Source: an uncultured Faecalibacterium sp. (lineage in GTDB: Bacteria > Bacillota > Clostridia > Oscillospirales > Ruminococcaceae). From it: a stretch of 51,914 nucleotides of DNA. The position numbers and the translations under genes were made by a program. Location of the stretch: NCBI GenBank assembly GCA_934511465.1, contig CAKSWG010000012.1, positions 1 to 51,914 of the forward strand. The letters run 5' to 3'. Each line of letters starts with the position of its first letter. Position 1 is the stretch's first letter. Positions 1-17,076 of this stretch are shown here, one piece after another. The notes beneath the pieces are model-generated. The model was given only the letters and a program-made list of their open reading frames with translations. It searched no databases and was not told where the DNA came from.

Positions 1-3000
1 GCCGAACATATCGGAAGATTTCTGCGCTTCGCTGGTGGATAATCCTGCGACATTGCGCATTTTTGTCGTGAGGAAAAGGTTCTTGTAAAAATGCGACTCG
101 TCCACAAAAAGCCTATCTACGCCCAACTGCTCAAAGGTGATAACATCATCCTTGCGCTCATCGGAGCGCAGCTTTTCCAGCTTGGTTTCCAGTGTTTTGC
201 GGGTCTTTTCCATCTGCTTGATGCTGAAATTTTCGCCAGCATTGGCTTTCAGTTCCTCGATGGCGGCAAGCGTTTCATCAATCTGCTCCTGAATGATGCG
301 CTCCTGCCGTTCATAAGACAGCGGAATACGCTCAAACTGGCTGTGGCCGATGATGACTGCATCATAGTCCCCGGTGGCGATTCTGGCGCAGAATTTTTTA
401 CGGTTGGCTGTTTCAAAATCCTTTTTCCGTGCCACCAGCAGCTTGGCATTGGGATAAAGGTGCAGGAACTCCGAAGCCCACTGCTCCGTCAGATGGTTGG
501 GAACGACAAAAAGGCTTTTCTGACACAGCCCCAGCCGTTTGGCTTCCATTGCGGAGGCCGCCATTTCAAATGTTTTGCCCGCTCCCACTTCGTGTGCAAG
601 TAGCGTATTACCGCCATAAAGCACATGAGCAATGGCATTGCGCTGGTGTTCCCGGAGGGTGATCTCCGGGTTCATACCGACAAAGTGGATATGGGAACCA
701 TCGTACTCTCGCGGTCTGCTGCTGTTGAACAACTCGTTGTACTGCTGCACCAGCGAAATGCGCCGCTGAGGGTCTTGCCAAATCCAGTTGGCGAAAGCAT
801 CTTTGATGACCTGCTGTTTCTGCTGTGCCAGCATGGTGTCCTTTTTGTTCAGTATGCGCTTCAGTCTGCCTTCTTCATCTTCGATGGTGTCATAGATGCG
901 TACATCTTTCAGGTTGAGTGTGTCTTCCAGAATCTTGTAGGCGTTGGCGCGGGATGTGCCGTAGGTTTCGGAGGAGATAATGTCACCTCTGCCCATAGCC
1001 GACTTGCCCTCAACGCGCCATTCTGCGGTATAGGGAGAATATCTCACCTTGACTGCATGGCGCAGATAGTAGGGAATCTGGAACGTTTCTGCCATGAACT
1101 TCTGAATAATTTCGGGCGGAAGCCATGTTGCACCCAGCCGTACATCAATTTCGGACGCTTCAAGGTCTTTCGGTTGTGCCTTTTCCAGTGCGGTGACATT
1201 GACCGCAAACTCCGGGTTGGTTTCGGCGGCAAGCTGTGCCATGCGCAGCTTTGCCCGGACGTTGCCGGACAGGTATTCGTCTGCCATCTGCCAGCCCGCT
1301 TCCGGGTCGGTGGGGTCTGCGCCGGGGTCTTTGAAAATCACACCGGACAGTTCGCTGGTGATGCGCCCATACTCGCCGGGAGTACCGAGCAACTCTGCCA
1401 TATAGGGTAAATCCACCCGGCCACGCTCTCCGATGGAAACTGCAAGGGCTTCCGTGGGAGTGTCCACGCTGGTGATGGTGCGTTCTGGGCGGATGGTGCG
1501 TTTGGTGAACATCGCCGCCTTGCTCTTGAGCTGCCCCTGCTCGTCCAAATTTTCCAGAGAACACAGCAGATAGTAAGAAGAATCCTGCTCAAATAATCTG
1601 CCGTTTTTGCGGTCATTCAACAAGCCATATTTGGCGGAAAAAGCATCGTAGGCAGTGTTCAGCTTTTCCTGCGTTGCTTTAATGTCGGCATCCGGGTAGT
1701 CGTTCAGCTGCTGGTCGATCAACTCATTGACGATTTGCCGCAGCTCCACCATCCCGGTCACACGGCCTTTGGCGGTGTCGGACAGCTCCACCTGTGTCAT
1801 GACGGAATTTTCCCGATAATACACCTCACCATCAACCACCGTGTAAGAGAAATTCTTCACATCTGGGTCAGCCGGGAGAATGTGCCGCTCATTTTCAGCA
1901 TCCGCAATATCTGGTGTTTCGACCTCGACTTCCGTGAACTGCCCCTCAATATGCTGGATGGCTTCTGCAAGCTGGTCCACCAGCACTGCGCCCTTGATGG
2001 GACGCACAGTGCATTCCTCCCGGCCATACTGGGTGCTTTCGGAAGTCAGTTCACCCAGCACCATCTCCGGGTGGTCTACGAAATACTGGTTGATGGCAAA
2101 ACCATCTTCCGTTTTGCCAAGCTGCACCCAGTCCGGCTCATGGTCGATAGGGCGGTCACGTTTTTGGAGGAAAATAATGTCGCTGACGACTTCTGTTCCT
2201 GCGTTTGCTTTGAACGCAGTGTTCGGCAGACGGATAGCACCCAGCAGATCAGCACGTTCGGCAATGTGCTTGCGGGCAGAAGAATCTTTGCTGTCCAGCG
2301 TGTAGCGACTGGTGACGAATGCCACGATGCCGCCCGGACGCACTTGGTCGATGGTCTTAGCGAAAAAGTAGTTGTGGATGCTGAAACCAAGTTTGTTATA
2401 AGCCTTGTCGTTTACCCGGTACTGGCCAAAGGGAACATTACCCACAGCAAGATCATAGAAGTCGCGGCGGTCAGTAGTTTCAAATCCGGCAACTTTAATG
2501 CTGGCTTCCGGGTAGAGCTTTTGCGCAATGCGGCCTGTGATGCTGTCCAGTTCCACACCATACAAGCGGCTGTCCTGCATGGTGTCTGGCAGCATCCCGA
2601 AGAAGTTGCCCACGCCCATGCTCGGCTCCAGAATGTTACCGCTGCGGAAACCCATGCGCTCCACTGCATCGTAGATGGCATGGATCACGGTAGGGTTGGT
2701 GTAGTGGGCGTTTAGAACAGAGCTACGGGCAGCGGCATATTCATCCTCGGAGAGCAGACCTTTCAGTTCCGTGTATTCCTTTGTCCAGTTGCTCTTGTCC
2801 GGGTCAAACGCATCCGGCAGACCACCCCAGCCGACATACTGTGCAAGCACTTCCTGTTCCTCGGCAGTGGCTCCACGCTGCTCCTGCTCCAACTGGAACA
2901 ACGTACGGATAGCTGCAATATTCCGGGCGTACTTCTGTTTTGCGCCGCCCTCGCCCAGATGATCGTCCGTGATGTGGAAGTTTCCGGCAGCTTCCGGCAC

Positions 3001-5361
3001 AGGTTCAACGTTCAAGGCTTCGTCTGCGGCGGCTGCATCCGGGAATGTCTGCCATTCGCCGTTGATCTCCACAGAGATAGGCAACTTGTCCAGTTTTTCA
3101 TCAGGCGTAGGCTCATCCTGCCGCAAACCGTCCTCGAACTGCTGCTTGTTCAGCACCTCGTTGCTCCACGAATAGCCCTGCGCACTGGTGTCGATGCGCA
3201 CATCGGTTTCGCCAACATAGCCGATTGTACCTTCGATGGTTTTGGTGGGAAGGTCTACAACAACGGAATCGCCAACCTTGTAATCAACTGCCTTTTCGGG
3301 AGCAGCATCAAGGGCTTCATCCTGCTGCTCGTACAATTCCCGGACAAGAGACAGCGATTCTTCTCGGAAAATCGGCATCCGTACATCGGCCAGAGCCATA
3401 TCCTGCAAGGAAACTTTGCCCTTGTCAAAATCCACCCCGTCAACCCGAAATTCCCGGCCATCCATATTGATAACGGAGCCGATGGGAAGATAATCCTCTT
3501 TGCGCAGGTACTTGGTCTGATGGTGAGTGCCATTCTCGCTTAACCCGGCAAGGTAGACGTTGTTGCCCGCAGACCACAATTCTTTTGATTTTCTCGCCCA
3601 TAAGCTAGGTGAAAAGCCGGAAACCTTAACTTCACCTAGTGCAGTCTTTTCAGTGAGCAAGATACCATTGATGATTTTGGAAACCTTTACGGCATCTTCT
3701 CCATAGAACATAAAATTGCCGCCGGCTTCAAATCCAACAAGAGTGTCCGGGTACTGTTCCTTTAATGCCGTGTATTCGGCAGCACTGGCGGCGTTCAGCT
3801 CAAGGGGAAACTCAATGGTTCTTTTCTCTTTGTCCGACAGGTAGCGGTCAGACTGAATCATCAGGTCGATATACTTTTCAACCTGATTCCAGCGGAGGAG
3901 CGTTTTCTGATGGTCGGGATAGTGTTCAAATGTCAGCCCCTTGCTGTCATGATCGAGCCAACCGCTGCTTCCGTCCAGATAGGTGTGCGAGGAGCCGCCG
4001 GGTCCGTTTGGGGCATATTCTTTCGCAAGAGCTTTTGCCCGGAGTTTTCGGTCAGGCTGGAGCTGATAAATTTTCCAGATGCGAAGTTTGCTGTTTTCAA
4101 AGTTAGAACCTCTCCGCAGCGCATTTTCGATCTCGGCCTGTGACAAAGAGAAAGCGGAGGGCGATTTTTCGCTCTCCGCTTGGTCGATGGATTCAATTTG
4201 TTCGGCTTCGGTGGGAATGTGGGCATCGAAGAAACTTAACTGTAGATCAGCTCGTTCATCACCAGCTCCTCGGCCTGTGCTTTCAGGCTGTTCATGTGCT
4301 GCACCCACTCCATCTGATGCTGTTCCTTGTTCGGAGCCGGGTTCTGTTTCAGCAGTTCCTGCATGGTCTGGTGCATCCGGCTCTCTGCGGTCTGCTCCAC
4401 TTCCAGCAGGTGCGGATGCAGAGTCCCCGACAGGAGCATCGAGTTGTACAGCACCGGGCGATGCTTCATCAGGTAAGTCCGGCGCAGTCGTCCGTACTTG
4501 CCCAGTGCTTTCTCCTGCTGGGGCAGGGTCAGGTTCGGGAGCTGGTAGTCCCCGATGGTCGAGTAGGTCACGTTCCGGCTGCTCATATTCATACTGGCTC
4601 CTTTCTACATTGCGGCGGCGGATTGTTGTTTTTACGGTTCTTTCAATGTTGCGTAGCACGTCCCGGCTACATTCGCTGACTGCGGTGCCCAGCGCATACA
4701 CGGCGGCAGGAGTTGAAAAGGAGAAGATGGCCTGAAAATCGTCCCGGTCAAAATGTCCCGCTGGCTCAAAGCCGCAGCGTTCGAGAACAGTGTAGGTGAT
4801 ACTGATTGCGGCGGCACTTTTGAACTGGAACTCCTGTCCGGCTTCATCATAATCCATCAGGAGAGAACCGTCAACGATGTCGAGAATGTCACCGCTGTTG
4901 TTATCCCAATAGGAATCCACCAGCTTGCCGCAAACATCCGCGATCTGCTGGCCGAGGTTTTCGTGATGGACACCGTATTCTCTGGCAAGCATTTCCGACA
5001 CAGGCTGCATCAGATCGGGGCCGAGCTGCCACACCTCCGGGTCACGAGAATTGCGGCGCACCCCGGTATCGCTCACATCAAAAACATAGTGCAGACGCGG
5101 CACACTGCTGGACTGGTCTAACAAGGCGATGCCTTTGGAGCCGCGCCGGACATAGCGATTCATGCGATCATTCCAGAGGTCGAAGCTGGCGCAGGCGGTG
5201 GCATCAGGCCGCTGGGCGTAAATCATGAGCTGGTCTGCATAGTTGTACTTGTACAGCCGGGATGCAGTGGTCAGGTAGTCCGTCCAGTTTTCCCAATACC
5301 GAGTCAGCTCTTTTGCCGTTTGCTGGGCAAGGTTGAGGTATTCTTGCGTTTTATTTGGCAT
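1..5361 (-). CDS. Giant ICE methylase/SNF2-type helicase, 3' end outside window
   Basis: This is one open frame of at least 1,787 residues that runs off the left edge. The start at 5361 has AGGAGG six bases upstream. The N-terminal part (1-190) resembles the ArdC-like/TOPRIM-associated start of these ICE proteins (YADQLMIYAQRPDAT). A disordered Pro/Ala/Glu/Asp/Ser-rich linker follows at about 255-375. An N6-adenine methylase-like domain shows the SAM motif EPSMGVGN near residue 910 and GNVPFG in place of the usual NPPY near 973. A superfamily 2 helicase follows, with Walker A HEVGAGKT near 1590 and DESH near 1753. Proteins of this layout are common in Tn1549/CTn-like elements, where they are thought to act on the incoming or replicating DNA; the exact role is unproven. 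Asn-Val-Pro-Phe for NPPY raises doubt about methylation activity. The linker also encodes TnpV in another frame. Confidence 0.9.
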   Translation of the reverse strand, partial: MPNKTQEYLNLAQQTAKELTRYWENWTDYLTTASRLYKYNYADQLMIYAQRPDATACASFDLWNDRMNRYVRRGSKGIALLDQSSSVPRLHYVFDVSDTGVRRNSRDPEVWQLGPDLMQPVSEMLAREYGVHHENLGQQIADVCGKLVDSYWDNNSGDILDIVDGSLLMDYDEAGQEFQFKSAAAISITYTVLERCGFEPAGHFDRDDFQAIFSFSTPAAVYALGTAVSECSRDVLRNIERTVKTTIRRRNVERSQYEYEQPERDLLDHRGLPAPEPDPAPAGESTGQVRTTAPDLPDEASPGAVQLDAPVGDSASAPAGSGADRREPDAPDHAGTAETEPGSEQGTASDGVGAAHEQPESTGRGAGDERADLQLSFFDAHIPTEAEQIESIDQAESEKSPSAFSLSQAEIENALRRGSNFENSKLRIWKIYQLQPDRKLRAKALAKEYAPNGPGGSSHTYLDGSSGWLDHDSKGLTFEHYPDHQKTLLRWNQVEKYIDLMIQSDRYLSDKEKRTIEFPLELNAASAAEYTALKEQYPDTLVGFEAGGNFMFYGEDAVKVSKIINGILLTEKTALGEVKVSGFSPSLWARKSKELWSAGNNVYLAGLSENGTHHQTKYLRKEDYLPIGSVINMDGREFRVDGVDFDKGKVSLQDMALADVRMPIFREESLSLVRELYEQQDEALDAAPEKAVDYKVGDSVVVDLPTKTIEGTIGYVGETDVRIDTSAQGYSWSNEVLNKQQFEDGLRQDEPTPDEKLDKLPISVEINGEWQTFPDAAAADEALNVEPVPEAAGNFHITDDHLGEGGAKQKYARNIAAIRTLFQLEQEQRGATAEEQEVLAQYVGWGGLPDAFDPDKSNWTKEYTELKGLLSEDEYAAARSSVLNAHYTNPTVIHAIYDAVERMGFRSGNILEPSMGVGNFFGMLPDTMQDSRLYGVELDSITGRIAQKLYPEASIKVAGFETTDRRDFYDLAVGNVPFGQYRVNDKAYNKLGFSIHNYFFAKTIDQVRPGGIVAFVTSRYTLDSKDSSARKHIAERADLLGAIRLPNTAFKANAGTEVVSDIIFLQKRDRPIDHEPDWVQLGKTEDGFAINQYFVDHPEMVLGELTSESTQYGREECTVRPIKGAVLVDQLAEAIQHIEGQFTEVEVETPDIADAENERHILPADPDVKNFSYTVVDGEVYYRENSVMTQVELSDTAKGRVTGMVELRQIVNELIDQQLNDYPDADIKATQEKLNTAYDAFSAKYGLLNDRKNGRLFEQDSSYYLLCSLENLDEQGQLKSKAAMFTKRTIRPERTITSVDTPTEALAVSIGERGRVDLPYMAELLGTPGEYGRITSELSGVIFKDPGADPTDPEAGWQMADEYLSGNVRAKLRMAQLAAETNPEFAVNVTALEKAQPKDLEASEIDVRLGATWLPPEIIQKFMAETFQIPYYLRHAVKVRYSPYTAEWRVEGKSAMGRGDIISSETYGTSRANAYKILEDTLNLKDVRIYDTIEDEEGRLKRILNKKDTMLAQQKQQVIKDAFANWIWQDPQRRISLVQQYNELFNSSRPREYDGSHIHFVGMNPEITLREHQRNAIAHVLYGGNTLLAHEVGAGKTFEMAASAMEAKRLGLCQKSLFVVPNHLTEQWASEFLHLYPNAKLLVARKKDFETANRKKFCARIATGDYDAVIIGHSQFERIPLSYERQERIIQEQIDETLAAIEELKANAGENFSIKQMEKTRKTLETKLEKLRSDERKDDVITFEQLGVDRLFVDESHFYKNLFLTTKMRNVAGLSTSEAQKSSDMFG
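4236..4592 (-). CDS. tnpV: TnpV, nested inside the giant helicase gene in another frame
   Basis: The 118-residue product matches the TnpV family over its whole length: an N-terminal YSTIGDYQLPNLTLP segment, the KYGRLRRTYL and YNSMLLSG motifs, and the C-terminal MEWVQHMNSLKAQAEELV ending in ELIYS. TnpV was named from Tn4451, where it is a small accessory protein. It has its own AAAGGAG five bases before the ATG. The whole gene lies inside the helicase coding sequence, shifted by one frame. The helicase frame stays open throughout and encodes a low-complexity Pro/Ala/Glu linker there. A match to a known family in one frame and a disordered linker in the other suggest overprinting, with TnpV as the constrained frame. 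Expression is inferred, not shown. Confidence 0.75.
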   Translation of the reverse strand: MNMSSRNVTYSTIGDYQLPNLTLPQQEKALGKYGRLRRTYLMKHRPVLYNSMLLSGTLHPHLLEVEQTAESRMHQTMQELLKQNPAPNKEQHQMEWVQHMNSLKAQAEELVMNELIYS

Positions 5362-6157: not shown

Positions 6158-6202
6158 AGTATCCTCCATATAGATTGGCTATGAAATAGCTATATCATTT
6201 GA

Positions 6203-6265: not shown

Positions 6266-6469
6266 TTAGTCGAGCGGAAATTCCAACTCGGCAAATTCAG
6301 CATCGGTCATAAGTTTCAGCTTTTCAATGACCTGCTCGGACAATTCTCGCAGGGCGGTTTCATCGGGCATCAGGTAGCACTGCATGAGCCGCAGCTCCTG
6401 CATCAGCCCCAGCCGGGTGCCGGGATTGTAGAGGATCATCAGCATCAGTTCTTCACCATTAAAGTTCAT
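6266..6469 (-). CDS. TTRAP family transposon-transfer assisting protein
   Basis: The 67-residue acidic protein starts MNFNGEELMLMILYNPGTR and ends with the AELEFPLD tail typical of the TTRAP family found in Clostridia conjugative transposons. GAGGG lies six bases before the ATG at 6469. Its first 11 bases overlap the end of the LPD16-like gene, so translation is probably coupled. The biochemical role in transfer is not established. Confidence 0.75.
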   Translation of the reverse strand: MNFNGEELMLMILYNPGTRLGLMQELRLMQCYLMPDETALRELSEQVIEKLKLMTDAEFAELEFPLD

Positions 6470-7373
6470 GAGCATCCCTCGCTTTCCTGCACCCGATAGG
6501 GCTGCACTCCGGGGCATCGCATTTTTCTTTTGTGCCAGCAAGAGCAGCCAGCTTTTCCAGCGTAGAGTGCCGCTGGTTCAGCCCCAATTTTTCAGCTTCT
6601 GCGGCTCTGTCCATCACAAAATCATAATCCTGCAACAGCCGCCGACCTTTTTCCATGTGGTGCGCTTCCAGAATCTGCTCCCGGACTTCCTGAATCGTCA
6701 GTTCCGGGGCATCGACCTGACCGCCATCCATCACGGAGAAGTCGCTGTGGTAAATGGTGTAGTTCCAGCCCTCATCGGTAGATTGGATGGCAAGATAACC
6801 CTTGCCGCCCAATTCCCATGCGCCCTGTTCATCCTGTGTCTGAATCTCTGGGTAATAGTCGGCTCCATTGCGTTCCATCACCTCAGCAAACTGGCAGATG
6901 TGGAACACATTGCCCAGACCACCCATGTCAAAATGGTAATCGTCCAGATATTCCAGCCGTGACGTAAAACTACGGCCATCCGGGTAGTCCACCTGAATCA
7001 CACCACCATCAGGAACGCGGTGAAGATCGTCGTAATAGCTGTTGATGAGCCGAATATCGGGCGGTATCGTTTCGGGTTCCCAGATACGCCGCCTGCCGAT
7101 GCCAGCCTGCGGGATGGTTTCAAGGATTTTTACGCTTTCAAGTTGGATGGCCTTACGGTCATCGTCCGAAAGTTCAAACAGATACCAGTTCCGGGCAGCA
7201 GACATCATGTTCCTGCCATCCGGCGGCAGATTTTTTTCGGAGATCTGCCCGCTTTCCAGAGGTTCGCCCGTCACCTTATTATAGGTAGCAAAGCCGACAC
7301 CTGCGCCGTTCTCCCGGAGGTGCAGATAGCGTTCATCATTGATGAGGTAGATTGCTTCCTTCTTCTGCTCCAT
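6459..7373 (-). CDS. LPD16-like ICE protein
   Basis: The 304-residue soluble protein begins with a segment that resembles the large polyvalent protein-associated domain LPD16 (INDERYLHLRENGAGVGFAT, residues 11-30). A middle region is rich in Tyr and Asp, and the C-terminal part is helical. No catalytic motif is seen. The ATG shares its A with the TGA stop of topB (TGATG), and the 3' end overlaps the TTRAP gene, which places it in one coupled operon. LPD domains are usually linked to mobile-element DNA-processing proteins; a role near the topoisomerase is inferred. Domain assignment is from memory of the family and moderate in certainty. Confidence 0.6.
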   Translation of the reverse strand: MEQKKEAIYLINDERYLHLRENGAGVGFATYNKVTGEPLESGQISEKNLPPDGRNMMSAARNWYLFELSDDDRKAIQLESVKILETIPQAGIGRRRIWEPETIPPDIRLINSYYDDLHRVPDGGVIQVDYPDGRSFTSRLEYLDDYHFDMGGLGNVFHICQFAEVMERNGADYYPEIQTQDEQGAWELGGKGYLAIQSTDEGWNYTIYHSDFSVMDGGQVDAPELTIQEVREQILEAHHMEKGRRLLQDYDFVMDRAAEAEKLGLNQRHSTLEKLAALAGTKEKCDAPECSPIGCRKARDAHEL

Positions 7374-9460
7374 CAGCGGCCACCCTCAAATTCCAGCGAA
7401 AACTTGCTGCGGCCATCGGCTTCGGTGGACAGCAGGACAGTAGCATTGTAGGTCTTGCCCTTGGAACTCTTACAGTCTTTCAGGCGCACTCGGCCATCCC
7501 GCAGCAGCCTGTCCGCTACATGAGCGTCCATCCGCTTGCCCAGCCGCTTAAAGAAAGCGTTATCTTTCCACAGCACGAAACGGCACTCGCGGTTCTCACA
7601 GAAATACCCCTTTTCATGCTCCACAACGGAATTGCCACAGTTCGGGCAGACACCAATCACTTTGTTTTTCATAAGCGCACTCGCTCCTTTCACGGCCTCG
7701 GTGGTGTTTACCAGCGAGGAGATCATATCGTTGATTTCAGTCATAAATGTTTCCGGCTCCATTTCGCCGCGCTCTACGCGCAGCAGTTTTGTTTCCCAGT
7801 CGGCGGTCATATCAGCGGACTGGATTTCTTCGGGCATCACCGTGATAAGGGCTTTGCCTTTGTCGGTGGGCAGCAGCACCTTTGTTTTCTTGTCGCCCTT
7901 GCGCTCCAGAAAGCCTTTCTGTACCAGCTTTTCGATGGTGGCGGCACGAGTGGCCGGAGTGCCGATGCCCTGACGCTCCACGCCTTCCGGCATACTGTCC
8001 GCACTGGCAGTTTCCATCGAGTGCAGGAGCGTATCTTCGGTAAAATGCTTCGGAGGGGACGTTTGTCCCTCTTTCAGTTCTGCATTGAGAATGCCGCACT
8101 CACTTTCCTCCACCTGCGGCAGAGCAGTGAACTCCCTTTTGCGGTTCAGAATATCGGCCAGAACCTTGCGCTCCACCGCTTTCCAGCCTTCTTCCAGAAT
8201 CTCTTTGCCCTTGGCTGTAAATTCTTCGCCTGCACATTCGGTGGTGAGCAGAGTTTCCAGATACCGGAAAGGTTTGCTGACTGCCATCAAGGTTCTGGCG
8301 ATAATCAGCTTCAAAATGTTCCGTTCGCCCTTGGGCAGAGCATCCAAATCGGCTTGCAGCATACTACGAGTAGGCAGGATAGCGTGGTGGTCGGTGACTT
8401 TCTGCCGATTGACGGTGCGCCGCGTCCGGGGAACATCATCGTCGGCATCCTCGCTGACAAAGCCGAGAAAATCTTCCAATTCCTCGGCCAGCTCTTCCAG
8501 CATTTCCTCATCCTCGTCAGCAATATAGCAGCTATCGGTGCGCGGATAGGTGGTGAGCTGTTTTTCATAAAGCGACTGCACATAGTCCAACGTCTGCTGC
8601 GCACTGTATCCCAACAGGCGGTTGGCATCGCGCTGGAGCGTGGTGAGGTCATAAAGCGGCGGCGGATTTTCGGCCTTTTCCTTGCGCGTGATTTTCTGGA
8701 TCGTGGACACCATCTCCTCTCTGCACCCCGCAAGCAGCTTTTCAGCTGCCGCTTTTTCAGAAATGCGGCGGCTGGATGCCACAAAACCGCTGGTCAGTTC
8801 CAGAGCCACCGTGTAGAATTTTTTCGGCACAAAGGCGGCAATGGCGGCTTCGCGCTCCACCGTCATGGCGAGTGTCGGGGTCATTACTCTGCCCACCGCC
8901 AAAGGCCGACAATACAGGCAGGAAAAAAGCCGGGAACAGTTGATGCCGACCATCCAATCGGCACGTTCCCGGCAGAGTGCAGCCTGATATAGCGCATCAT
9001 ATTCTGTTGACGGTTTCAGATTTGCAAAGCCCGCCCGGACAGCGGAATCCTCCATGCTGGACAGCCACAGCCGGGAAACAGGCTTTTTGCATCCGGCCTG
9101 CTCATACACCAGCCGGAAGATCAGTTCGCCCTCACGTCCTGCGTCACAACTGTTCACCACAGTATTAACGTCTGCCCGATGCATGAGTTTTTTCAGGATG
9201 CCAAACTGTTTTTTGGTGCTGGCAGACACCAGATACTGCCATTTCTCCGGCAGGATGGGCAAGTCTGCAATGTTCCACTTTACATACTGCTCCCCGTAGG
9301 CACTGGGCGGCGCAAGTTCCACCAGATGCCCGACACACCAACTTACAAGATAGCCGTTGCCCTCAAGGTAGCCATCCTGCCGCCCATGCACACCTAAAAT
9401 TTTGGCGTAAGATATGGCAACGGATGGTTTTTCGGTCACGATCAATTTTGCGATAAACAA
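7373..9460 (-). CDS. topB: DNA topoisomerase III, type IA
   Basis: The protein has about 695 residues. The N-terminal Toprim domain starts LIVTEKPSVA and contains the acidic DAGREGE motif. The catalytic tyrosine lies in TTYPRTDS. A zinc-ribbon-like C-terminal segment has CPNCG and CENRECRF. It removes or decatenates strands during ICE DNA replication or transfer. The start is unusual: GGAGGG is followed by no ATG. TTG at 9469 overlaps the ribosome site, TTG at 9460 is one base after it, and an in-frame ATC at 9454 sits at ideal spacing. I give 9460 as a compromise. The gene follows DUF4366 and is coupled to the LPD16-like gene by TGATG. Confidence 0.92.
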   Translation of the reverse strand: MFIAKLIVTEKPSVAISYAKILGVHGRQDGYLEGNGYLVSWCVGHLVELAPPSAYGEQYVKWNIADLPILPEKWQYLVSASTKKQFGILKKLMHRADVNTVVNSCDAGREGELIFRLVYEQAGCKKPVSRLWLSSMEDSAVRAGFANLKPSTEYDALYQAALCRERADWMVGINCSRLFSCLYCRPLAVGRVMTPTLAMTVEREAAIAAFVPKKFYTVALELTSGFVASSRRISEKAAAEKLLAGCREEMVSTIQKITRKEKAENPPPLYDLTTLQRDANRLLGYSAQQTLDYVQSLYEKQLTTYPRTDSCYIADEDEEMLEELAEELEDFLGFVSEDADDDVPRTRRTVNRQKVTDHHAILPTRSMLQADLDALPKGERNILKLIIARTLMAVSKPFRYLETLLTTECAGEEFTAKGKEILEEGWKAVERKVLADILNRKREFTALPQVEESECGILNAELKEGQTSPPKHFTEDTLLHSMETASADSMPEGVERQGIGTPATRAATIEKLVQKGFLERKGDKKTKVLLPTDKGKALITVMPEEIQSADMTADWETKLLRVERGEMEPETFMTEINDMISSLVNTTEAVKGASALMKNKVIGVCPNCGNSVVEHEKGYFCENRECRFVLWKDNAFFKRLGKRMDAHVADRLLRDGRVRLKDCKSSKGKTYNATVLLSTEADGRSKFSLEFEGGR

Positions 9461-9484
9461 TCCCTCCAATCTGTTTCGGATTCG

Positions 9485-9509
9485 ATATGTAGGCGGCAGA
9501 ACGCCGCCT
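9485..9509. repeat. Recurring ICE hairpin with ATATGTA box, copy 2
   Basis: ATATGTA is joined directly to GGCGGC, a 5-base loop and GCCGCC. It lies between the DUF4366 stop and the topB ribosome site on the minus strand. Confidence 0.6.
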
Positions 9510-9514
9510 TAAAA

Positions 9515-10243
9515 TCAGATGGGTGTCACGTCCTGTTCCTCAGAAGTGTTTTCATCGGAATCATCCTCCGGGGGAATCTCAAAGCTGCCCTTATCCTCTG
9601 TATAGTCTGCATCCGGGTCAATGGCTTCTTTTTCAGCCTGCTTCTTGTTCTTCTGCTGGATGAAGAAATAGAAACCGCCGCCAGCCGCCAGTGCGATCAG
9701 GGCAATGACACCGAGAAACGCCGCAGCATACTTTGTGACCTTGTTTTCTTTGGGTGCGTTCGCCGCTTTCTCTGCTTCTTCTGCGGCTTTCTTGGCTTCT
9801 TCCTCGGCTTTCAGCTTGTCCTGTTCAGCTTTTGCCGCAGCTTCTTTTTCAGCGGTATAAGCATCGGCAGCATCTTCTTCCATCAGAGCCAAAAGGTCTG
9901 CTTCGTCCACCAGATTCATAAAGTGGACGGTCTGCGCCCCTTTGCTGTTTCGGTCAATGACCAGATAAAAAGTCGCACCCGACTTGCTGACAAGCGTAAT
10001 GAACTGCTGGCCGGAACCGTCCGAATAATTGGTGTAGTAGTCGTCCACCAGCGTCAGATTGCCCTCCGGGGTCAGTGCGCCGGATTCCTCATCCGTGATG
10101 GTAACAGTATCTTCCTCCACGATTTCCGGCAGAACAGGCTGTTCCACCGGGGTGGAATCGCCCTCAAAGGCGAAAGCGGGAGCTGCCATGCCGATGCACA
10201 GCACCGCCGACACCAGCAGTGCGCCAAATCTCTTAAACTTCAT
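9515..10243 (-). CDS. DUF4366 surface/membrane protein of the transfer system
   Basis: The 242-residue protein has a signal peptide (KRFGALLVSAVLCIGMAAPAFA), an extracellular domain to about residue 115, and a Lys/Glu/Ala-rich coiled coil at about 125-165. One transmembrane helix follows near 170-195, then an acidic cytoplasmic tail. This is the DUF4366 (CD1107-like) layout seen in Clostridia ICEs. AAGGAGG overlaps an upstream ATG, so the ATG at 10243, nine bases after it, is chosen. It overlaps the end of the DUF4315 gene by 11 bases. It probably forms part of the transfer machinery at the membrane; this is inferred from position. Confidence 0.8.
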   Translation of the reverse strand: MKFKRFGALLVSAVLCIGMAAPAFAFEGDSTPVEQPVLPEIVEEDTVTITDEESGALTPEGNLTLVDDYYTNYSDGSGQQFITLVSKSGATFYLVIDRNSKGAQTVHFMNLVDEADLLALMEEDAADAYTAEKEAAAKAEQDKLKAEEEAKKAAEEAEKAANAPKENKVTKYAAAFLGVIALIALAAGGGFYFFIQQKNKKQAEKEAIDPDADYTEDKGSFEIPPEDDSDENTSEEQDVTPI

Positions 10244-10499
10244 CCGAATCATCCTCCTTGTCGAAAGTTGCGCCCACAGCGGCCAAAGCAGCCGGGTTCG
10301 GGGTGGAAGTGGCGGACTGCCGTAACAGTGCAGCCAGCTGCTCCGGTGTGACCTTGGCGGTGCGCACCATCTCGTTCACTTCGGCGGCTTCGGCCTCCTG
10401 AATCCTCCGTTCCAGAATCTCGATGCGGTTGTTCAGCTTGATGCGCCGATCTTTCTCTTTTTCGAGCATTGCGCGCAGTTTTTCCAGTTTTTCGCTCAT
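10233..10499 (-). CDS. DUF4315 family coiled-coil protein
   Basis: The 88-residue protein begins with a coiled coil (LEKLRAMLEKEKDRRIKLNNR) and ends in an acidic tail. The pattern and position, between NlpC/P60 and DUF4366, match DUF4315 of Clostridia ICEs. GGAGGG lies seven bases before the ATG. Function is unknown; it overlaps its neighbour and is likely coupled to it. Confidence 0.8.
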   Translation of the reverse strand: MSEKLEKLRAMLEKEKDRRIKLNNRIEILERRIQEAEAAEVNEMVRTAKVTPEQLAALLRQSATSTPNPAALAAVGATFDKEDDSDEV

Positions 10500-10514
10500 A
10501 GTAAACCCTCCATT

Positions 10515-12254
10515 TCATTTTGAAAGCCGTCCAAATCCTGCGAGATGCTTCTCCCAGTAGGACGAGTGGATATTTGCGTATTTGATGGGGTCGCCAGCGG
10601 ACACCATCATGCCGTTGCCGAGATAAATCCCGGTATGGCTCATGCCGGGGGTGTCATACGTTCCCTTGAAGAAAACCAGATCACCGGGTTTCGCTTCTGC
10701 TTCGGAAATGTGCTGACACTTGTTCCATAGGCCGTTGGCAGTGGTACGGCCAACATCGTAGCCGTTCTGATTGTAGACCCAGCAGACGTAGCCGGAGCAG
10801 TCAAAGCCCGTTTCCGGGGTGGAACCGCCCCAAACGTAGGGTGTGCCAACGTATTTCTTTGCTTCCTCGTAGATGGCCGCAAACTCGCTGTCAGTCAGTG
10901 CTTCCGCAGGAACGGTATAGTCGATGCCGGGTGTGCCGGAGCCATCTGAGCCACCGGGCGGCAATCCACCGTTGAACAGGTATGGCCGACCACCCAGCGT
11001 ATCCTGAAAAATCTCGTACCGCTTCCACTGATCTTCGGTCAGTTCTTCGCGGATAACGACCTCCAGACCTTTGTTTTCCAGCTTGGTGTGAAAAATCTTG
11101 TATTCATACGGCACTTGCGTAGGAACCGGGATTCCAGCCGGACTGATGACCCACACGGTTTTGTACCGTATCTGCACCTCCACCCATGTCGTTAGCTTAT
11201 ATTGCTTTTTGAAGATTTCCTTCAGCTTGCCCTGCACCTCTGACCGGGTGTAATCATCATACAGGGTAGTCAGGAAAGATGTGAGCTGCCATGGGTCATG
11301 CTCGATGGGGTCAAGATGGTATTGATACTCGTTGTAGCCCGGATGGTCTTGCGGAGTGCGCTTGATTTTCTTGTCCAGTTCCTTTTCCAGCTTCTTGTAG
11401 TCCTGCTCTGCACCGCGAATATCTCTGTCCTCGGCGGTGTAGATGGTCTGCCCGGACACCTGTGTGCCGCCCGAAAAGAGGATGCCGCAGGAGGAAAAGC
11501 CCGACATGACCATAAGAATGAGCAAAACAAAAACGCCCACGATCACCAGAACGTGCGCGTTGCTTTTCGCCGCAGTCATAAGGCCGTTTACTGCAGTGCT
11601 GACTACACTTTTGCCCTTGTCCACCACTTGCTCTACGCCAGACCGTGCCGCAGATGCACTGCTGGATGCAGCCTTTTTGCCGCCAGCAGTCTGCGCCGCT
11701 GTGCCGCCTGACCGGGCAGCAGCATAGTAGTTCTTGTGGATTTCCTGCCGCTGTTTCCATCGGGAGAGCCAGTTGGAAGCCCCCTCGCTGGTGCCGGATG
11801 CACCTGCATTTTGTGCCGCAGTTGCTTCCTGTGCGGCAGATTTTGTGGTGCAAGTTTTCTTCTTGCCCTGCATCTTGGCTTTCTTTTTCAGCTTCCGGGC
11901 ATAGCGGCTTTTGGAAATGTCCCTGACATTCCCGGCAGTTTTTTCGCCCTCGCTTAGAGCCTGCACACCGACATTATCTCCCTCGTACTGGTCGATTTCC
12001 CGATGCGCCGCAGACCGGGCGGCATGAGCAGTGAACATCTCGCGTTTCTGCGCCTTGCTCAAACGGCTCAGTTCGTCCGGGGTCAGTTCTGCTTTGCCAA
12101 AACGCAAGTGCTGGGCTTTCTCTGCGGCCTTGTCTGCATCAAGTTTCAGTTTTTTCTTTTTGGGCGTGGACTGTTCGACCCTCGCTTTCTTCGGGGGAGA
12201 ACGGGTTTTCTTTGCAGAAGAATCATCTTTGAAGTTCAGCTTTGGATTGCTCAT
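10515..12254 (-). CDS. NlpC/P60 wall hydrolase of the conjugation apparatus
   Basis: The 579-residue protein has a long basic cytoplasmic N-terminus (1-215, Lys/Ala-rich), one transmembrane helix near 230-250 and a stalk domain. A C-terminal NlpC/P60 peptidase follows, with catalytic Cys in GFDCSGYVCW and His in SHTGIYLGNG. It resembles CD1108-type proteins that open peptidoglycan for the transfer channel. The ATG overlaps the virB4 stop as ATGA, which indicates coupling. Confidence 0.88.
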   Translation of the reverse strand: MSNPKLNFKDDSSAKKTRSPPKKARVEQSTPKKKKLKLDADKAAEKAQHLRFGKAELTPDELSRLSKAQKREMFTAHAARSAAHREIDQYEGDNVGVQALSEGEKTAGNVRDISKSRYARKLKKKAKMQGKKKTCTTKSAAQEATAAQNAGASGTSEGASNWLSRWKQRQEIHKNYYAAARSGGTAAQTAGGKKAASSSASAARSGVEQVVDKGKSVVSTAVNGLMTAAKSNAHVLVIVGVFVLLILMVMSGFSSCGILFSGGTQVSGQTIYTAEDRDIRGAEQDYKKLEKELDKKIKRTPQDHPGYNEYQYHLDPIEHDPWQLTSFLTTLYDDYTRSEVQGKLKEIFKKQYKLTTWVEVQIRYKTVWVISPAGIPVPTQVPYEYKIFHTKLENKGLEVVIREELTEDQWKRYEIFQDTLGGRPYLFNGGLPPGGSDGSGTPGIDYTVPAEALTDSEFAAIYEEAKKYVGTPYVWGGSTPETGFDCSGYVCWVYNQNGYDVGRTTANGLWNKCQHISEAEAKPGDLVFFKGTYDTPGMSHTGIYLGNGMMVSAGDPIKYANIHSSYWEKHLAGFGRLSK

Positions 12255-14620
12255 TTCTGCGCACCCTCCGACACTTCACCCAATTTGGTGGTCATAATGC
12301 GGTAGAGTTCAAGGTCAGTCGGGAAACGGTCAACAAAGGGCAGAATGACATTGCCGAAGAACAGCAACCCTTCGCCCTCGCCGGAGTGGGTCACATAGGA
12401 AAGCTGATGGGGCGAGATGTTCAACTGCTTTGCCAAAATCTGACGGTCGCCAGCGGCCTGATTGAGCATGATAATCATGTCCGAGTTTTCAAAAATATTC
12501 TCGACTTCACGCGAAGAAAGCAGGTCTTTGACATTCTGCGTTAATCCAGTCGGGATGCCGCCCCACTTGCGAAAACGCTTCCAAATCTCCACGGAATAAG
12601 CCGCAGTCTGTTCTTCTTTTAAGAGGAGGTGCATCTCATCCATATAATATCGGGTGGACTTTCCGCTGCTGCGGTTGGCAGTGACACGCCCCCAGACCTG
12701 ATCCTGCACGATGAGCATACCGAGCTTCTTCATCTGCTTGCCCAGTTCCTTGATGTCATAGCAGACAATTCGGTTATTGACGTTCACGTTGGTGCGGTGG
12801 TTGAACAGGTTCAGACTGCCCTTGACGTAGATTTCCAGAGCCGTGGCAACATGATGGGCTTCTTTTTCATCCTGCTGGAGCAGGGCATTGTACAAATCCT
12901 CAAGGATCGGCATATTCTCCGGGCAGGGATCAGCGAAATATTTGCGGTAGATCAAATGGACACAACGGTCAATGACCGTCTTTTCCACCGGGAGCAGACC
13001 TTCCTTGCCGCCGACCACCAGTTCACACAAGGAAAGAATAAAGTCTGCTTTCAGGGACAGCGGGTTATCTTCCTCTGAATAGTTGGCGTTAATGTCCATC
13101 GGGTTGATGAACTGGGTGCTGTTGGGCGAGATTTTGATAACCTGACCTTTCAGCCGATTCACCAGCGGGGAGTATTCGCCTTCGGGGTCGTTCACAATAA
13201 TATCATCGTCTGTCACGAGAAATGCGTTGGCGATTTCACGTTTTGCCGAGAAACTTTTGCCGGAGCCGGGAGTGCCGAGGATAAGGCCATTCGGATTTTT
13301 TAGCTTTTTTCTGTCCACCATGATGAGGTTGTTGGAAAGCGCGTTCAGGCCGTAATACAGGCTTTCCTTGCTAGACTGATAAAGCTCCTGTGTGGTGAAC
13401 GGAATGAAAATGGCCGTGCTGCTGGTAGTCAGGCCGCGCTGAATCTCGATCTGGCAGTCAGCCAGCGGCAGAGAAGACATAAGACCCTGCTCCTGCTGGT
13501 AGTCCAGTCTGCACAGATTGCAGTTATGCTTTTGCGCAATAGAACTGGCCTGAAAGATGTTGTTTTCCAGTTCCTGCTCCGTGCGCCCGGTGTTCAGAAC
13601 GAGGAATGTCACCAAAAACATTCGCTCGTTCTGCGACTGCAATTCCTTTAACAAGGCTTTGGCATCCCTGCCGTAAGTTTTCAAATCTGACGGAAGAATG
13701 TCAATATCATACCCGGAACGGATGGCCTTTTTCTGTTCCTCAATGGTGCTGCGGTCAAGTTCGGTGATCGTGCGCTTGACTGTTTTAATGGCACGGTTCT
13801 GGTCTACCGACTGGATGTGCATGGTGACAATCTGGCTGGAATCCATGTCCAGAAAATCTTTCAGAAGTTGGTCGCTGATGTCAGAGGCCGTGATACTCAG
13901 GAAGCTGGCGGCGCAGTAGATGCCACCCATTTGGAAAGTGCGGCTGTTCTTAAACGCAAAAACCGTGGGTGCAATGGCATCTTTGACGGAAAGGCCGCTT
14001 TTCACAAGGTCTTTCCAGTCAAAATGAAATTTGCTGGAACCGTCCATGTTGAACATATCGTGCATGAGTTTGAGCCGCTCGGCACCGTTCAGCGGCTTGG
14101 CCTGCACACCCAGCCTGTGAAAGTTGTTCAAAAGGTCGTTCTGGATGTGGTCGAGCCGTGCCTTGACCTGCCGCATACTCTCACCCTCAACGCCAAAGGT
14201 GATAAATTTGGTCTTGGTCAGACCATTATTGCCCTTGGCAAGCTGCTGGCGCAGCATTTGAGAATACTCGGCGCGAACATCATCAAAGCCATCCCGCTGG
14301 TAAGGGATGCGGATGCTCTTCTCAAACTCTGTGCTGTCCGTTGCCATGTTCACAAAGGACAGTTCAAACTTGATGCTGGAATCGAAGAAGTTCAGAAAAC
14401 TGCACCATTCCTCGAAAATCGCAGTCTTGTCCTCCTGCTGGGCAAGCTGGTAATTGATGTCCTGATACTGGATGGTACGGGTGTAGTAGTTCGGTTTCAC
14501 CCGGCAGGTGCCATCCTCGAACATCCGCTGCATGGGGATGGACTGCTGCGCTGTCCGGGGAACAGCGGGCTTCGGCGGCTTTTTCTTGCCGCCCTTATCG
14601 GTCTTTTTCCAAAACGGCAT
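12251..14620 (-). CDS. virB4: VirB4-like transfer ATPase
   Basis: The 789-residue protein carries an N-terminal VirB4/CagE-type domain and a C-terminal ATPase. Walker A is GTPGSGKSFSAKRE, followed by DPEGEYSPLV, and a Walker B-like YYMDEMHLLL lies near residue 665. It powers assembly of, or substrate transport by, the type IV secretion channel and acts at the inner face of the membrane with PrgI and VirB6. It overlaps prgI by 26 bases and the hydrolase gene by 4, a tight transfer operon. Confidence 0.93.
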   Translation of the reverse strand: MPFWKKTDKGGKKKPPKPAVPRTAQQSIPMQRMFEDGTCRVKPNYYTRTIQYQDINYQLAQQEDKTAIFEEWCSFLNFFDSSIKFELSFVNMATDSTEFEKSIRIPYQRDGFDDVRAEYSQMLRQQLAKGNNGLTKTKFITFGVEGESMRQVKARLDHIQNDLLNNFHRLGVQAKPLNGAERLKLMHDMFNMDGSSKFHFDWKDLVKSGLSVKDAIAPTVFAFKNSRTFQMGGIYCAASFLSITASDISDQLLKDFLDMDSSQIVTMHIQSVDQNRAIKTVKRTITELDRSTIEEQKKAIRSGYDIDILPSDLKTYGRDAKALLKELQSQNERMFLVTFLVLNTGRTEQELENNIFQASSIAQKHNCNLCRLDYQQEQGLMSSLPLADCQIEIQRGLTTSSTAIFIPFTTQELYQSSKESLYYGLNALSNNLIMVDRKKLKNPNGLILGTPGSGKSFSAKREIANAFLVTDDDIIVNDPEGEYSPLVNRLKGQVIKISPNSTQFINPMDINANYSEEDNPLSLKADFILSLCELVVGGKEGLLPVEKTVIDRCVHLIYRKYFADPCPENMPILEDLYNALLQQDEKEAHHVATALEIYVKGSLNLFNHRTNVNVNNRIVCYDIKELGKQMKKLGMLIVQDQVWGRVTANRSSGKSTRYYMDEMHLLLKEEQTAAYSVEIWKRFRKWGGIPTGLTQNVKDLLSSREVENIFENSDMIIMLNQAAGDRQILAKQLNISPHQLSYVTHSGEGEGLLFFGNVILPFVDRFPTDLELYRIMTTKLGEVSEGAQK

Positions 14621-14957
14621 GGGTCACGCCTCCTTTCATGAGCAGTGCATAGTAGTTGTTGGTCTGATACGGTCGAATCTTCGGACGCAGAAATCGCGCC
14701 TGAACATAGTGCGACAGCACCTTTTCCAAAGGCTGTCCGTTTTTCTCGTACATACCGAGAAAGAACGCCGGGAGCATAACAGCCATCATGCCGAGGGTGG
14801 CGGCAGTATTGCCACCAGAATCCCGGAGAACGAAAAACAGCGGCACTCCAATCAGTGCCGCCGTTCCGAAGCAGATGAGCTGTCGCTTTGTCAGGTTGAA
14901 AGCTACTTTTGACTTCACCTTGGTCAAGTCGCGGGGAACGGAAATATATGCGGCCAA
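14595..14957 (-). CDS. prgI: PrgI family (VirB3-like) membrane protein
   Basis: The 120-residue protein has the PrgI signature AAYISVPRDLTKVKSKVAFNL, followed by two transmembrane helices at about 28-45 and 53-70. PrgI is the Gram-positive counterpart of VirB3 and works with VirB4. The start is TTG, nine bases after AAAGGGGG. It overlaps virB4. Confidence 0.88.
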   Translation of the reverse strand: MAAYISVPRDLTKVKSKVAFNLTKRQLICFGTAALIGVPLFFVLRDSGGNTAATLGMMAVMLPAFFLGMYEKNGQPLEKVLSHYVQARFLRPKIRPYQTNNYYALLMKGGVTHAVLEKDR

Positions 14958-14972
14958 AATTCACACCCCCTT

Positions 14973-15839
14973 TTAATGTGCGCCCAGCACACTTTTTGTG
15001 ACCGAGCTGGTTTTGAACAAGCTGAAGCAGAGCAGGACGGTATAGCCGACAATGCTCCAGATGGAGCCGATGGCATCGCCGGAAATCGCCACGTTCTGTA
15101 TCAGCACGGCATAGATGGCAACACAAATCAAAATCAGGAATCCCTGAAATCCCAGCGCGAACAGGCATTTCAGATAGTTCTGTCCCATGTGCGATTGTTC
15201 ATGGTTTCCCCATGTGGCCATGGGAATCGGCGCAAGGCTCACCATGCAGTAGATCTCGATTATGCGCCCGTACACGATAACAAAAATGACGATTGAAAGT
15301 ATCCTCATGGTGATGCCAATGAAGAACGATTGCAGGAAAAGCCCGAACAGCGGGCCGACATCCATTTGCATCAGACTGGCTTCCAGCATGGACAGGCCAA
15401 TCTCGTTGACACGGGTATTTCCTGCAATGATGCCGCTGGAATCGGACACGACTTTCTGCGTCAGGTCGAACACCGCCATCACAATATCGAATGTGTTGGA
15501 GATGAACCAAACCGACACTGCTGTTTTGAAGATCCAGCGCATAATGAGCGCAGGCTCGAACTGCGCCATGTTATTGTGCTGGGTTATCATCTCGATCAGC
15601 TCGTAACAGGCGATAAAGGTCAGGATGATGCCCGCGATAGGCAGAACCACATTCCGGGAAAGCGATTCGATCATCGCAAAAACACGCGGTTCAAAGGCCG
15701 ATGGGCGTGTGCCGACCTGCTGTGCAATGTCACCGACCTGTTCATTTACGGCATCAAACAGCCCGGACAAATTTGACATGATGCCCGCCGTTAGGATGCC
15801 CTTTATCCAGTCGGCTATGGCTTTGAGAACGGTTTCCAT
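14973..15839 (-). CDS. VirB6/TrbL-like transfer channel protein
   Basis: The 288-residue protein has several transmembrane helices, with hydrophobic blocks near 63-82, 105-125, 165-205, 230-250 and 258-278. It begins METVLKAIADWIKGILTAGI, the form of the CD1112 family of VirB6-like conjugation proteins. It probably forms the inner-membrane pore with PrgI and VirB4. It lies just downstream of a 22-codon ORF. Confidence 0.85.
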   Translation of the reverse strand: METVLKAIADWIKGILTAGIMSNLSGLFDAVNEQVGDIAQQVGTRPSAFEPRVFAMIESLSRNVVLPIAGIILTFIACYELIEMITQHNNMAQFEPALIMRWIFKTAVSVWFISNTFDIVMAVFDLTQKVVSDSSGIIAGNTRVNEIGLSMLEASLMQMDVGPLFGLFLQSFFIGITMRILSIVIFVIVYGRIIEIYCMVSLAPIPMATWGNHEQSHMGQNYLKCLFALGFQGFLILICVAIYAVLIQNVAISGDAIGSIWSIVGYTVLLCFSLFKTSSVTKSVLGAH

Positions 15840-15856
15840 TCAGCAGTCACCGTCCT

Positions 15857-15925
15857 TTAGGTGAAGTGATTGATAAGGGTCTTGAGAAGGTTCAGAACAA
15901 AAATAATGTGGGTCAGAAGCTGCAT
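15857..15925 (-). CDS. 22-residue hydrophobic peptide upstream of virB6
   Basis: The short frame encodes MQLLTHIIFVLNLLKTLINH plus two residues, an amphipathic, nearly all-hydrophobic helix. GAAAGGCGG lies upstream of the ATG and the stop is 17 bases before virB6. It could be a small membrane peptide or a translational leader for virB6. No family is recognised. Confidence 0.4.
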   Translation of the reverse strand: MQLLTHIIFVLNLLKTLINHFT

Positions 15926-15963
15926 AATAGCACCGCCTTTCGTTGATGGGTGGATAAAACAAA

Positions 15964-16034
15964 AGCACGATTTTGGCAGACACTGTTCAAAAAACTGCAA
16001 ACCGCAGCAGGTTGGCGTGGTGAAAAATCGTGCT
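15964..16034. repeat. Long inverted repeat in the virB6 leader region
   Basis: A perfect 11-bp inverted repeat, AGCACGATTTT and AAAATCGTGCT, encloses 49 bases. Inside is a second small hairpin (CTGC/GCAG on the minus strand) followed by TTTTTT, and the outer stem is followed by TTTGTTTT. It could be an attenuator or a structured RNA ahead of virB6. Confidence 0.5.
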
Positions 16035-16042
16035 ATGGAAAC

Positions 16043-16071
16043 AAAAAAGCCGACTGCTTTTGGCAATCGGC
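16043..16071 (-). terminator. Terminator after the DUF3990 pair
   Basis: On the minus strand the stem GCCGATTGC/GCAGTCGGC with a CAAAA loop is followed by TTTTTTG, directly after the DUF3791-like gene. Confidence 0.8.
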
Positions 16072-16088
16072 ATAGAAAAATAATTCAG

Positions 16089-16532
16089 TTAAGCAAGCAT
16101 CTTGCCCTCCAGATAGGAGCAGCGCAGATAATCGGGGTTGGTATAATAGACATTGGAATTGAAGTCGGAAATCTCATCTGTGATGAACGAAGAGAAAACA
16201 TCAATGATCGCCTGTGCTGCATCATCGTTCTTCATGGTGGACAGCACCAATCCCTGATACAGCATCCCGATGGAAGTTGCGGAAGGAACTTCGTAGCGGC
16301 ACTCGGCTACGGTATCAAAATTACCGTCCGGGATGTTAAACCAATCAATCAGTTCTTCCGAAACCTGTTCAAAGGAAAGGCAGTGGTTTACCTCGGCATC
16401 ATAAATTTGACGCTCAATGTCCTTTTTGGAAAAGCAACGAATCACATCCTGCCGATGGTTCTTTGTTTTGCGGGCAATGTATTCGATCAGGCTGCATACA
16501 TAAAAAATATCATTCATCTGTTTTTCCGTCAT
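16089..16532 (-). CDS. DUF3791-like partner of DUF3990, possible antitoxin
   Basis: The 147-residue protein has an N-terminal helical segment (MTEKQMNDIFYVCSLIEYIA and on to about 65) that resembles DUF3791, a small domain often encoded beside DUF3990. An acidic helical C-terminal part has no known family. A GTG at 16544 abuts the GAGGAG ribosome site, so the ATG at 16532 is preferred. It overlaps the DUF3990 gene by 23 bases and is followed by a terminator. The antitoxin role is inferred from pairing only. Confidence 0.55.
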   Translation of the reverse strand: MTEKQMNDIFYVCSLIEYIARKTKNHRQDVIRCFSKKDIERQIYDAEVNHCLSFEQVSEELIDWFNIPDGNFDTVAECRYEVPSATSIGMLYQGLVLSTMKNDDAAQAIIDVFSSFITDEISDFNSNVYYTNPDYLRCSYLEGKMLA

Positions 16533-16992
16533 GGATGTGTTCACTCCTCTCGAATGTTAAACAGCGCAGAGCATTGGCTGTATGAAAACTGATCTGATGT
16601 GTCGGGTGTTTGAATTTTGCCAATGCCCAAAATGCTTCGCGGCTGATTTGACCAGAAGTAAAGCCGTTGACGTAATCCCAAATCGTATCGTCAGACATTG
16701 GCCCCTCTACAATATCGTAGGGATGGGTTTCGCCTGCACGACATTTTGCAATAAAATCCAGCCATTCATCCGACATTTCCGGGAAGCGCAGAATCTTCAG
16801 CTCAGGATTCTCTACATAGCGGTAAATGTTCACAATACCATATGCGGAGCGGCGGTCTGCCCAGCGGTAGGCTTGCTGATAATTGTTCGTGCAATAGAAT
16901 CCCCATGAAAAGTCTTTTGTATACCGTGTGATACGGATTTCAGGATAGACAACTTCCTCTTTGCTACCGTGATACAGTAAAATCTCGCGCAT
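16510..16992 (-). CDS. DUF3990 protein, putative ADP-ribosyltransferase
   Basis: The 160-residue protein matches DUF3990 along its length: LLYHGSKE at 5-12, KDFSWGFYCT with Tyr33, a WADRR segment, IVNIYRY, EWLDFIAKCRAG, DIVEGPMSDD and a C-terminal THQISFHT. The HG, GFY and later Glu/Gln motifs fit the H-Y-E/Q layout of PARP- and DarT-like ADP-ribosyltransferases, to which I believe DUF3990 belongs; no activity is shown here. The start at 16992 lies eight bases after AAGG. A minus-strand TATAAT lies just upstream. With the following gene it forms a two-gene cassette, possibly toxin-antitoxin. Confidence 0.7.
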   Translation of the reverse strand: MREILLYHGSKEEVVYPEIRITRYTKDFSWGFYCTNNYQQAYRWADRRSAYGIVNIYRYVENPELKILRFPEMSDEWLDFIAKCRAGETHPYDIVEGPMSDDTIWDYVNGFTSGQISREAFWALAKFKHPTHQISFHTANALRCLTFERSEHIHDGKTDE

Positions 16993-17042
16993 CTGCTTCA
17001 CCTTCTATAGATAAGATGGTGACTATGGTGCTTCTTATTATA

Positions 17043-17070: not shown

Positions 17071-17076
17071 CTGTTC

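Follow-up and report, generated by a model that had tools for sequence, protein, structure and literature searches.

Among nested genes on one strand, comS inside srfA of Bacillus subtilis and Rz1 inside Rz of phage lambda are read in a frame different from that of the host gene and are translated independently. Fully nested same-strand genes of bacteria nevertheless meet with little acceptance: gene-finding programs tend to disallow them, and their conservation is usually shallow. A case in a mobile element is that of RSF1010, in which mobB lies within mobA/repB and is translated in another frame (PMC2200642). The present analysis concerns a putative tnpV gene nested out of frame in a giant helicase gene of an integrative and conjugative element (ICE), found in a 51,914-nucleotide stretch of DNA from an uncultured Faecalibacterium sp. 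(assembly GCA_934511465.1, contig CAKSWG010000012.1, positions 1 to 51,914; hereafter the window). As with mobB, the small gene occupies another frame of a large, multifunctional host gene carried by a mobile element. A mobilization role is established for MobB, while the host of TnpV is a helicase and the host segment is a predicted disordered linker. Unlike mobB, the nested TnpV is found with its host gene in several classes as well as in Synergistota, and the small protein also has free-standing copies. Nested out-of-frame genes in mobile elements were thus already known, and what distinguishes this locus is the depth of its conservation, the split between a folded and a disordered product, and the apparent escapes of the nested gene. 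The nested open reading frame (ORF) belongs to the TnpV family PF14198, the protein family of Tn4451, Tn6104 and related mobilizable elements. The copies described in PMC3158075 are separate transposon genes, whereas the copy in the window is nested in the helicase gene. The host gene resembles, in its ArdC-N, MutS-I, methylase and SNF2 make-up, the polyvalent DarB-like methylase-helicase dyad proteins of conjugative elements (PMC5512222).

The TnpV ORF lies on the minus strand at 4236..4592, starting with ATG at 4592 and ending with TAA at 4236, and encodes 118 residues in the +1 frame relative to the surrounding helicase frame. Residues 9-116 matched PF14198 over the whole profile (positions 1-111 of 111) with E=4.4e-36 and 123.7 bits, against a cut-off of 27. 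The first-pass annotation, made from the letters alone, had proposed a complete 118-residue TnpV with its own AAAGGAG ribosome site, read in a shifted frame inside an unbroken helicase frame; its coordinates proved exact. It had also described the overlap as low-complexity in the helicase frame, and this stretch is rich in Pro, Ala, Glu, Asp and Gly, with order-promoting residues (WCFIYVLN) accounting for 10% of it compared with 33% of TnpV. When the helicase residues were kept and their codons redrawn with the window's own usage, the TnpV frame was open in 12,660 of 20,000 draws (63%). The open TnpV frame by itself is therefore no more than chance. In the reverse experiment, in which the TnpV protein was kept and its codons were redrawn, the helicase frame was open in just 96 of 20,000 draws. 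The former figure would suit an untranslated ORF that is decayed or open by chance, but the homology, the switch of codon positions and the conserved ribosome site described below make this explanation scarcely credible; chance is excluded, on comparative grounds, by the homology to a known family and by the conservation of the arrangement in relatives.

The first-round TnpV searches yielded 95 TnpV places in the window and 94 loci; 59 of these lay inside a same-strand frame of at least 500 codons, all in one phase. The N-terminal domain of the helicase (256 aa) was then used as the query so that loci were not selected by TnpV. It matched 95 of 391 genomes of the class, and the N-domain profile matched 25 of 299 genomes of the phylum. 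A total of 120 loci was analysed, comprising 30 that were returned, 60 that we chose from the longer class list, and 30 from the phylum search; 106 of them covered at least 180 positions of the N domain, giving 103 distinct loci. TnpV was found downstream of the N domain in 97 of these 103 at E<=1e-3 (90 at E<=1e-10), and the phase was always +1. The helicase frame was stop-free across TnpV in 96 of the 97, and the TnpV match spanned at least 80 of 114 profile positions in 89. Over all 245 records, the 146 distinct TnpV copies with an upstream N domain shared one phase and 145 of them were stop-free in the helicase frame, while among the distinct copies without an N domain and with sufficient upstream sequence, the helicase-phase frame was stop-free in only 4 of 58. 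A search by family gave 83 distinct TnpV places, of which 26 were nested behind an N domain. The arrangement, with a curated family in a single phase within a single gene family, spans Clostridia, Bacilli, Tissierellia and Synergistota.

The two frames were compared by divergence at helicase codon positions 1, 2 and 3. For 20 Faecalibacterium loci, the values in the N domain were 0.107/0.070/0.301; they were 0.226/0.138/0.135 across the overlap and 0.229/0.173/0.423 beyond it. In a set of 68 other loci, the corresponding values were 0.294/0.236/0.542, 0.378/0.263/0.184 and 0.425/0.358/0.596, and a third set of 30 loci exhibited the same switch. Pairs with an N-domain divergence outside 0.01-0.45 were excluded from these three sets, which left 190 (all), 735 and 60 pairs, respectively. 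Even the distant, weakly matching group L157-L176 (our locus numbers; 20 loci, 152 of 190 pairs) went from 0.190/0.141/0.342 to 0.306/0.203/0.143 in the overlap and back to 0.275/0.258/0.367. The fastest site was helicase position 3 outside the overlap and TnpV position 3 inside it, where TnpV positions 1 and 2 were the slowest. Moreover, the residue divergence in the Faecalibacterium overlap was 0.230 for TnpV and 0.327 for the helicase. The switch and the lower residue divergence of TnpV indicate that constraint within the overlap falls on the TnpV frame, and that the helicase frame is held there mainly to stay open. The frame-specific comparison that had been proposed as a check has thus been made, and it gave conserved TnpV codons with loose helicase codons in the overlap and the reverse outside. 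The earlier claim that TnpV is overprinted in a linker stands as to the overlap; the emphasis has to be shifted, with TnpV as the gene under constraint and the linker as its consequence.

A Shine-Dalgarno (SD) sequence, AAAGGAG, is located at 4598..4604 (minus strand), 5 nt before the TnpV ATG. In relatives, an SD match of at least 5 nt was present 3-13 nt before 118 of 122 testable distinct nested starts, 120 of which were ATG; among 1877 same-frame control ATGs, the proportion with such a match was 5.5%. The test was confined to the 153 of 183 nested copies with a match starting at profile positions 1-3, and taking the best of a few candidate starts biased it slightly in favour of a match. 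If TnpV were produced solely by a frameshift that fuses it to the helicase N domain, without a start of its own, the conserved SD and ATG would have no reason. Furthermore, a TAG stop in the TnpV frame abuts the 5' side of the SD in the window (4605..4607, minus strand), which leaves scant room for such a fusion, and in 76 of 133 distinct loci the TnpV frame meets a stop within 30 codons upstream. In 15 of the 133 it runs open for more than 70 codons ahead of the match, as a fusion would allow, but we regard a fusion as very improbable.

Several observations weigh against the reading that the stretch encodes two proteins. In 8 of the 97 loci, the match spans fewer than 80 of 114 positions: L121, which is at a contig end, L129, and six of L157-L176, in which a partial profile match of 63-79 positions lies in an open TnpV frame. 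L105 has a helicase stop inside the overlap with TnpV intact, and L129 has a shortened TnpV with the helicase frame ending soon afterwards. Six of the 103 N domains gave no TnpV match (L147, L151, L152, L153, L155 and L261), and TnpV is therefore not indispensable. Among these, the contig ends in L147, the linker is short in L151-L153, L261 is a 299-codon ArdC-like protein, and L155 carries a shortened TnpV in the same phase that was recognised by eye. Thirty of the 183 nested copies fell outside the SD test, including those of Synergistaceae and L157-L176, and the latter show no clear SD. In addition, our TnpV profile was partly derived from nested sequences. Pfam's own model nevertheless placed all five submitted distant nested ORFs above its cut-off, the lowest at 27.9 bits against 27; these were from Enterococcus, Anaerococcus, Synergistaceae, Listeria and Virgibacillus, representing Bacilli, Tissierellia and Synergistota. 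The Listeria copy had not been caught by our profile and was found by its open frame and by profile comparison. Relatives with a conserved helicase stretch and a closed or drifting TnpV frame, the case named beforehand as refuting, were not seen among the loci; L151-L153, L155, L129 and the six of L157-L176 come nearest. On Thermus and Metabacillus plasmids, an ArdC-like protein occurs alone, with no TnpV within the retrieved stretch.

The nested TnpV gives the impression of a genuine, old gene that has mostly been overlooked, and it is very probable that one DNA stretch encodes both TnpV and the helicase linker. The comparisons show that selection keeps the TnpV protein as well as a stop-free helicase frame, from which we infer the translation of both frames. 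In RefSeq, the plasmid pEFM9-2 is given a TnpV and then an SNF2-related gene that starts after TnpV, as if the helicase frame were not read through but divided into two pieces, the N domain and then the post-TnpV part. However, the helicase frame of pEFM9-2 is open from the N domain through TnpV for 2099 codons, and separate genes would need no such avoidance of stops as is seen across TnpV in all but one of the 97 distinct loci. A division into two genes is thus most improbable as well. Among the plasmid records inspected, for which the gene table is incomplete, the helicase is listed without the nested TnpV in L282-L284, L288-L291 and L294, and TnpV is listed with the helicase shortened or missing in L278, L286, L287 and L292. 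The helicase frame is open across TnpV in these records, and that of L286 is broken earlier, in the N domain. In INPHARED, the name 'Bacteriophage sp.' was borne by 32 of 46 TnpV-matching records and by 22 of 23 records matching the helicase N domain. Those among the records listed were unannotated human-fecal contigs, and they look like ICE or plasmid pieces labelled as phage.

The structures predicted for the two products differ. AlphaFold modelled TnpV as a beta hairpin and four helices with a pLDDT (predicted local distance difference test score) of 87.8. In the model of the helicase N-terminal 622 residues, confident domains flank residues 271-383 (4213..4551, minus strand), which had pLDDT values below 50 and form a predicted disordered linker holding most of the overlap. 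One frame would then be folded and the other disordered, and the pair may serve as a test bed for shared constraint between frames of these two kinds. The TnpV model had no match in the PDB at E<=0.001. The BFVD entries A0A8S5PVI1 and Q8W6J4 were matched with a Foldseek probability of 0.99 but with E values of 0.2-0.3, and one of them is a piece of a large protein. Near the end of the linker, helicase residues 374-378 (4228..4242, minus strand) read QLSFF, with the TnpV stop codon inside; we take this motif to resemble the clamp-binding consensus QL[SD]LF. Of 151 distinct nested loci, 78 had a motif of this type close to the TnpV stop, 58 of them at exactly the same place, compared with 4 of 151 after shuffling. 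The QL of QLSFF is partly imposed by the final Ser-stop of TnpV.

The two products could be made from one message as follows. Ribosomes translating the giant helicase would pass through 4592-4236 and make of it a flexible, disordered tether that joins the ArdC-like N domain to the MutS_I/methylase/helicase part. The internal AAAGGAG-ATG would be the starting point of other ribosomes, which would produce the small, helical and folded TnpV in the neighbouring frame. In this way TnpV would be produced from the message of its helicase and inherited together with it. As to its function, our best but tentative conjecture is that TnpV serves the helicase as partner or regulator and acts on the DNA of the element in transfer or establishment; the term accessory factor, used in the first-pass annotation, is likewise a conjecture about function. 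It has also to be asked whether TnpV is the excisionase (recombination directionality factor, RDF) of the element, its position inside the helicase gene coupling its production to the expression of the transfer genes. A role in excision has been postulated for the TnpV of Tn4451 because it resembles lambda Xis (PMC3158075), and free-standing TnpV genes lie directly downstream of a large serine recombinase in L202, L204, L192 and L207 and behind a recombinase on the Campylobacter plasmid pCOS502. However, other free-standing copies adjoin helix-turn-helix genes (L196, L077) or a HicB-like antitoxin (L088), and no credible likeness of TnpV to a solved structure was found. Moreover, the integrase of Tn4451 requires no such factor, being RDF-independent according to a review (PMC5704250), and because of this we rated a role as helicase partner or regulator above that of excisionase, which is unlikely. 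The nested arrangement makes the function of TnpV testable, as the start codon can be removed silently for the helicase.

The first-pass annotation had further suggested that TnpV is co-inherited with the helicase. The N-domain and TnpV distances of 73 loci were correlated with a rho of 0.81, and none of 500 permutations gave a value as high; TnpV therefore travels with its helicase, as had been supposed. In a quick, unrooted TnpV tree of 119 rows, nested and free-standing copies were intermixed, with 9 changes between the two states. Forcing 40 free-standing rows together against 57 nested rows cost 155 log-likelihood units (p-AU, approximately unbiased test, 7.8e-5), 22 of the 119 rows with long or unstable branches having been removed beforehand. 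Judged by this test, the free-standing copies are not a single clade. The TnpV trees are built on 114 columns, many of their forks are unresolved and their root is not known. The intermixing suggests repeated escape from the nested state, which is simpler than repeated insertion because all the nested copies share one site and one phase. That most of the free-standing TnpV genes, often adjoining large serine recombinases, come from nested ancestors that left the helicase gene is, in our estimate, evenly balanced. A wider proposal, for which the balance is already somewhat unfavourable, is that the helicase linker is the ancestral home and reservoir of TnpV, with several escapes into recombinase-bearing transposons that later reached plasmids of Campylobacter and Enterobacteria. 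If this were true, a nested pair kept for an unusually long time, with a linker shaped by the TnpV code, would also have given rise to new, separate genes. On a Salmonella IncHI2A plasmid (L280, 68189-76536), a free-standing TnpV was found near an aminoglycoside resistance gene, and its presence on an enterobacterial plasmid suggests wide travel of the free-standing form.

The direction of the first move may have been the opposite one. A free-standing TnpV would then have been inserted long ago between helicase domains, its second frame becoming the linker, and the nested form would derive from the free-standing one. TnpV is folded, whereas the disordered linker is known only in nested loci, and the TnpV-less L147 and L151-L153 have a QLSLF-like motif 45-64 residues past the N domain, a spacing that is 127 residues in the window (N domain end 247, Q at 374). 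In addition, TnpV-bearing mobile elements have been reported within snf2 genes of Streptococcus ICEs (PMC9815147), an insertion in snf2 being described for S. suis. An insertion might thus account for the first origin, but by itself it leaves the intermixing of nested and free-standing copies unexplained, and repeated insertion at one site and in one phase is unlikely, so that the later moves would be outward, as far as 114 columns and an unrooted tree can tell. We consider this origin possible but short of probable. As a description of the present state, a TnpV-bearing mobile element inserted into snf2 was ruled out, the helicase frame being unbroken and the phase constant.

In the published record, the words 'TnpV' and 'overlapping' are absent from the main text of PMC5512222. 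Among the open-licence PMC papers listed by our searches, no title or opening of an abstract mentions a nested TnpV, an absence that carries little weight.

The host gene extends over 1..5361 on the minus strand, where its frame is open from the ATG at 5361 to the window edge (1787 codons), the 3' end being cut off at position 1; many relatives have open frames of more than 2,000 codons. Its layout, as predicted from sequence matches and models, is an ArdC-like N domain, a disordered linker, a MutS_I domain and an SNF2/ResIII helicase of the polyvalent type. Pfam matches above the cut-off were obtained for ResIII (5.5e-8) and MutS_I (5.4e-7). In the truncated gene of the window, SNF2-rel_dom reached 24.5 bits, slightly below its cut-off of 24.9, and in the Synergistaceae relative L090 the SNF2 match was above the cut-off. 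The MutS_I domain comprises residues 529-609 (3535..3777, minus strand), and the top Foldseek match of this region was the MutS chain 5yk4_B (E=8.4e-4). The Pfam search of the 3'-truncated helicase gave no methylase match; an NCBIfam methylase match at residues 987-1069 was far under its cut-off, and Eco57I was above the cut-off in the relative L160. The N-terminal domain, residues 1-256 (4593..5361, minus strand), had no Pfam match in the window and is called ArdC-like from its relatives: L164 matched ArdcN at 1.3e-3, under the cut-off, and many plasmid relatives carry the annotation 'ArdC-like ssDNA-binding domain'.

Upstream on the minus strand (6459..19199), the ICE genes identified by Pfam include those for an LPD16 protein, a topoisomerase, a CD1107-like protein, an NlpC/P60 protein, a TraG P-loop ATPase and a type IV secretion system coupling protein. 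The last five make giant ICE helicase a fair name for the host gene, and this identification, already given in the first-pass annotation, is borne out by these genes together with the MutS_I and ResIII/SNF2 matches. Between the helicase and the LPD16 gene, a 245-aa ORF at 5432-6169 (minus strand) had no Pfam match and is possibly cargo. In genome G828 (L301/L308; L296/L310), a second open frame of about 1,050-1,090 codons precedes the helicase by 2.6-2.7 kb on the same strand, and it contains the start of the same N domain.

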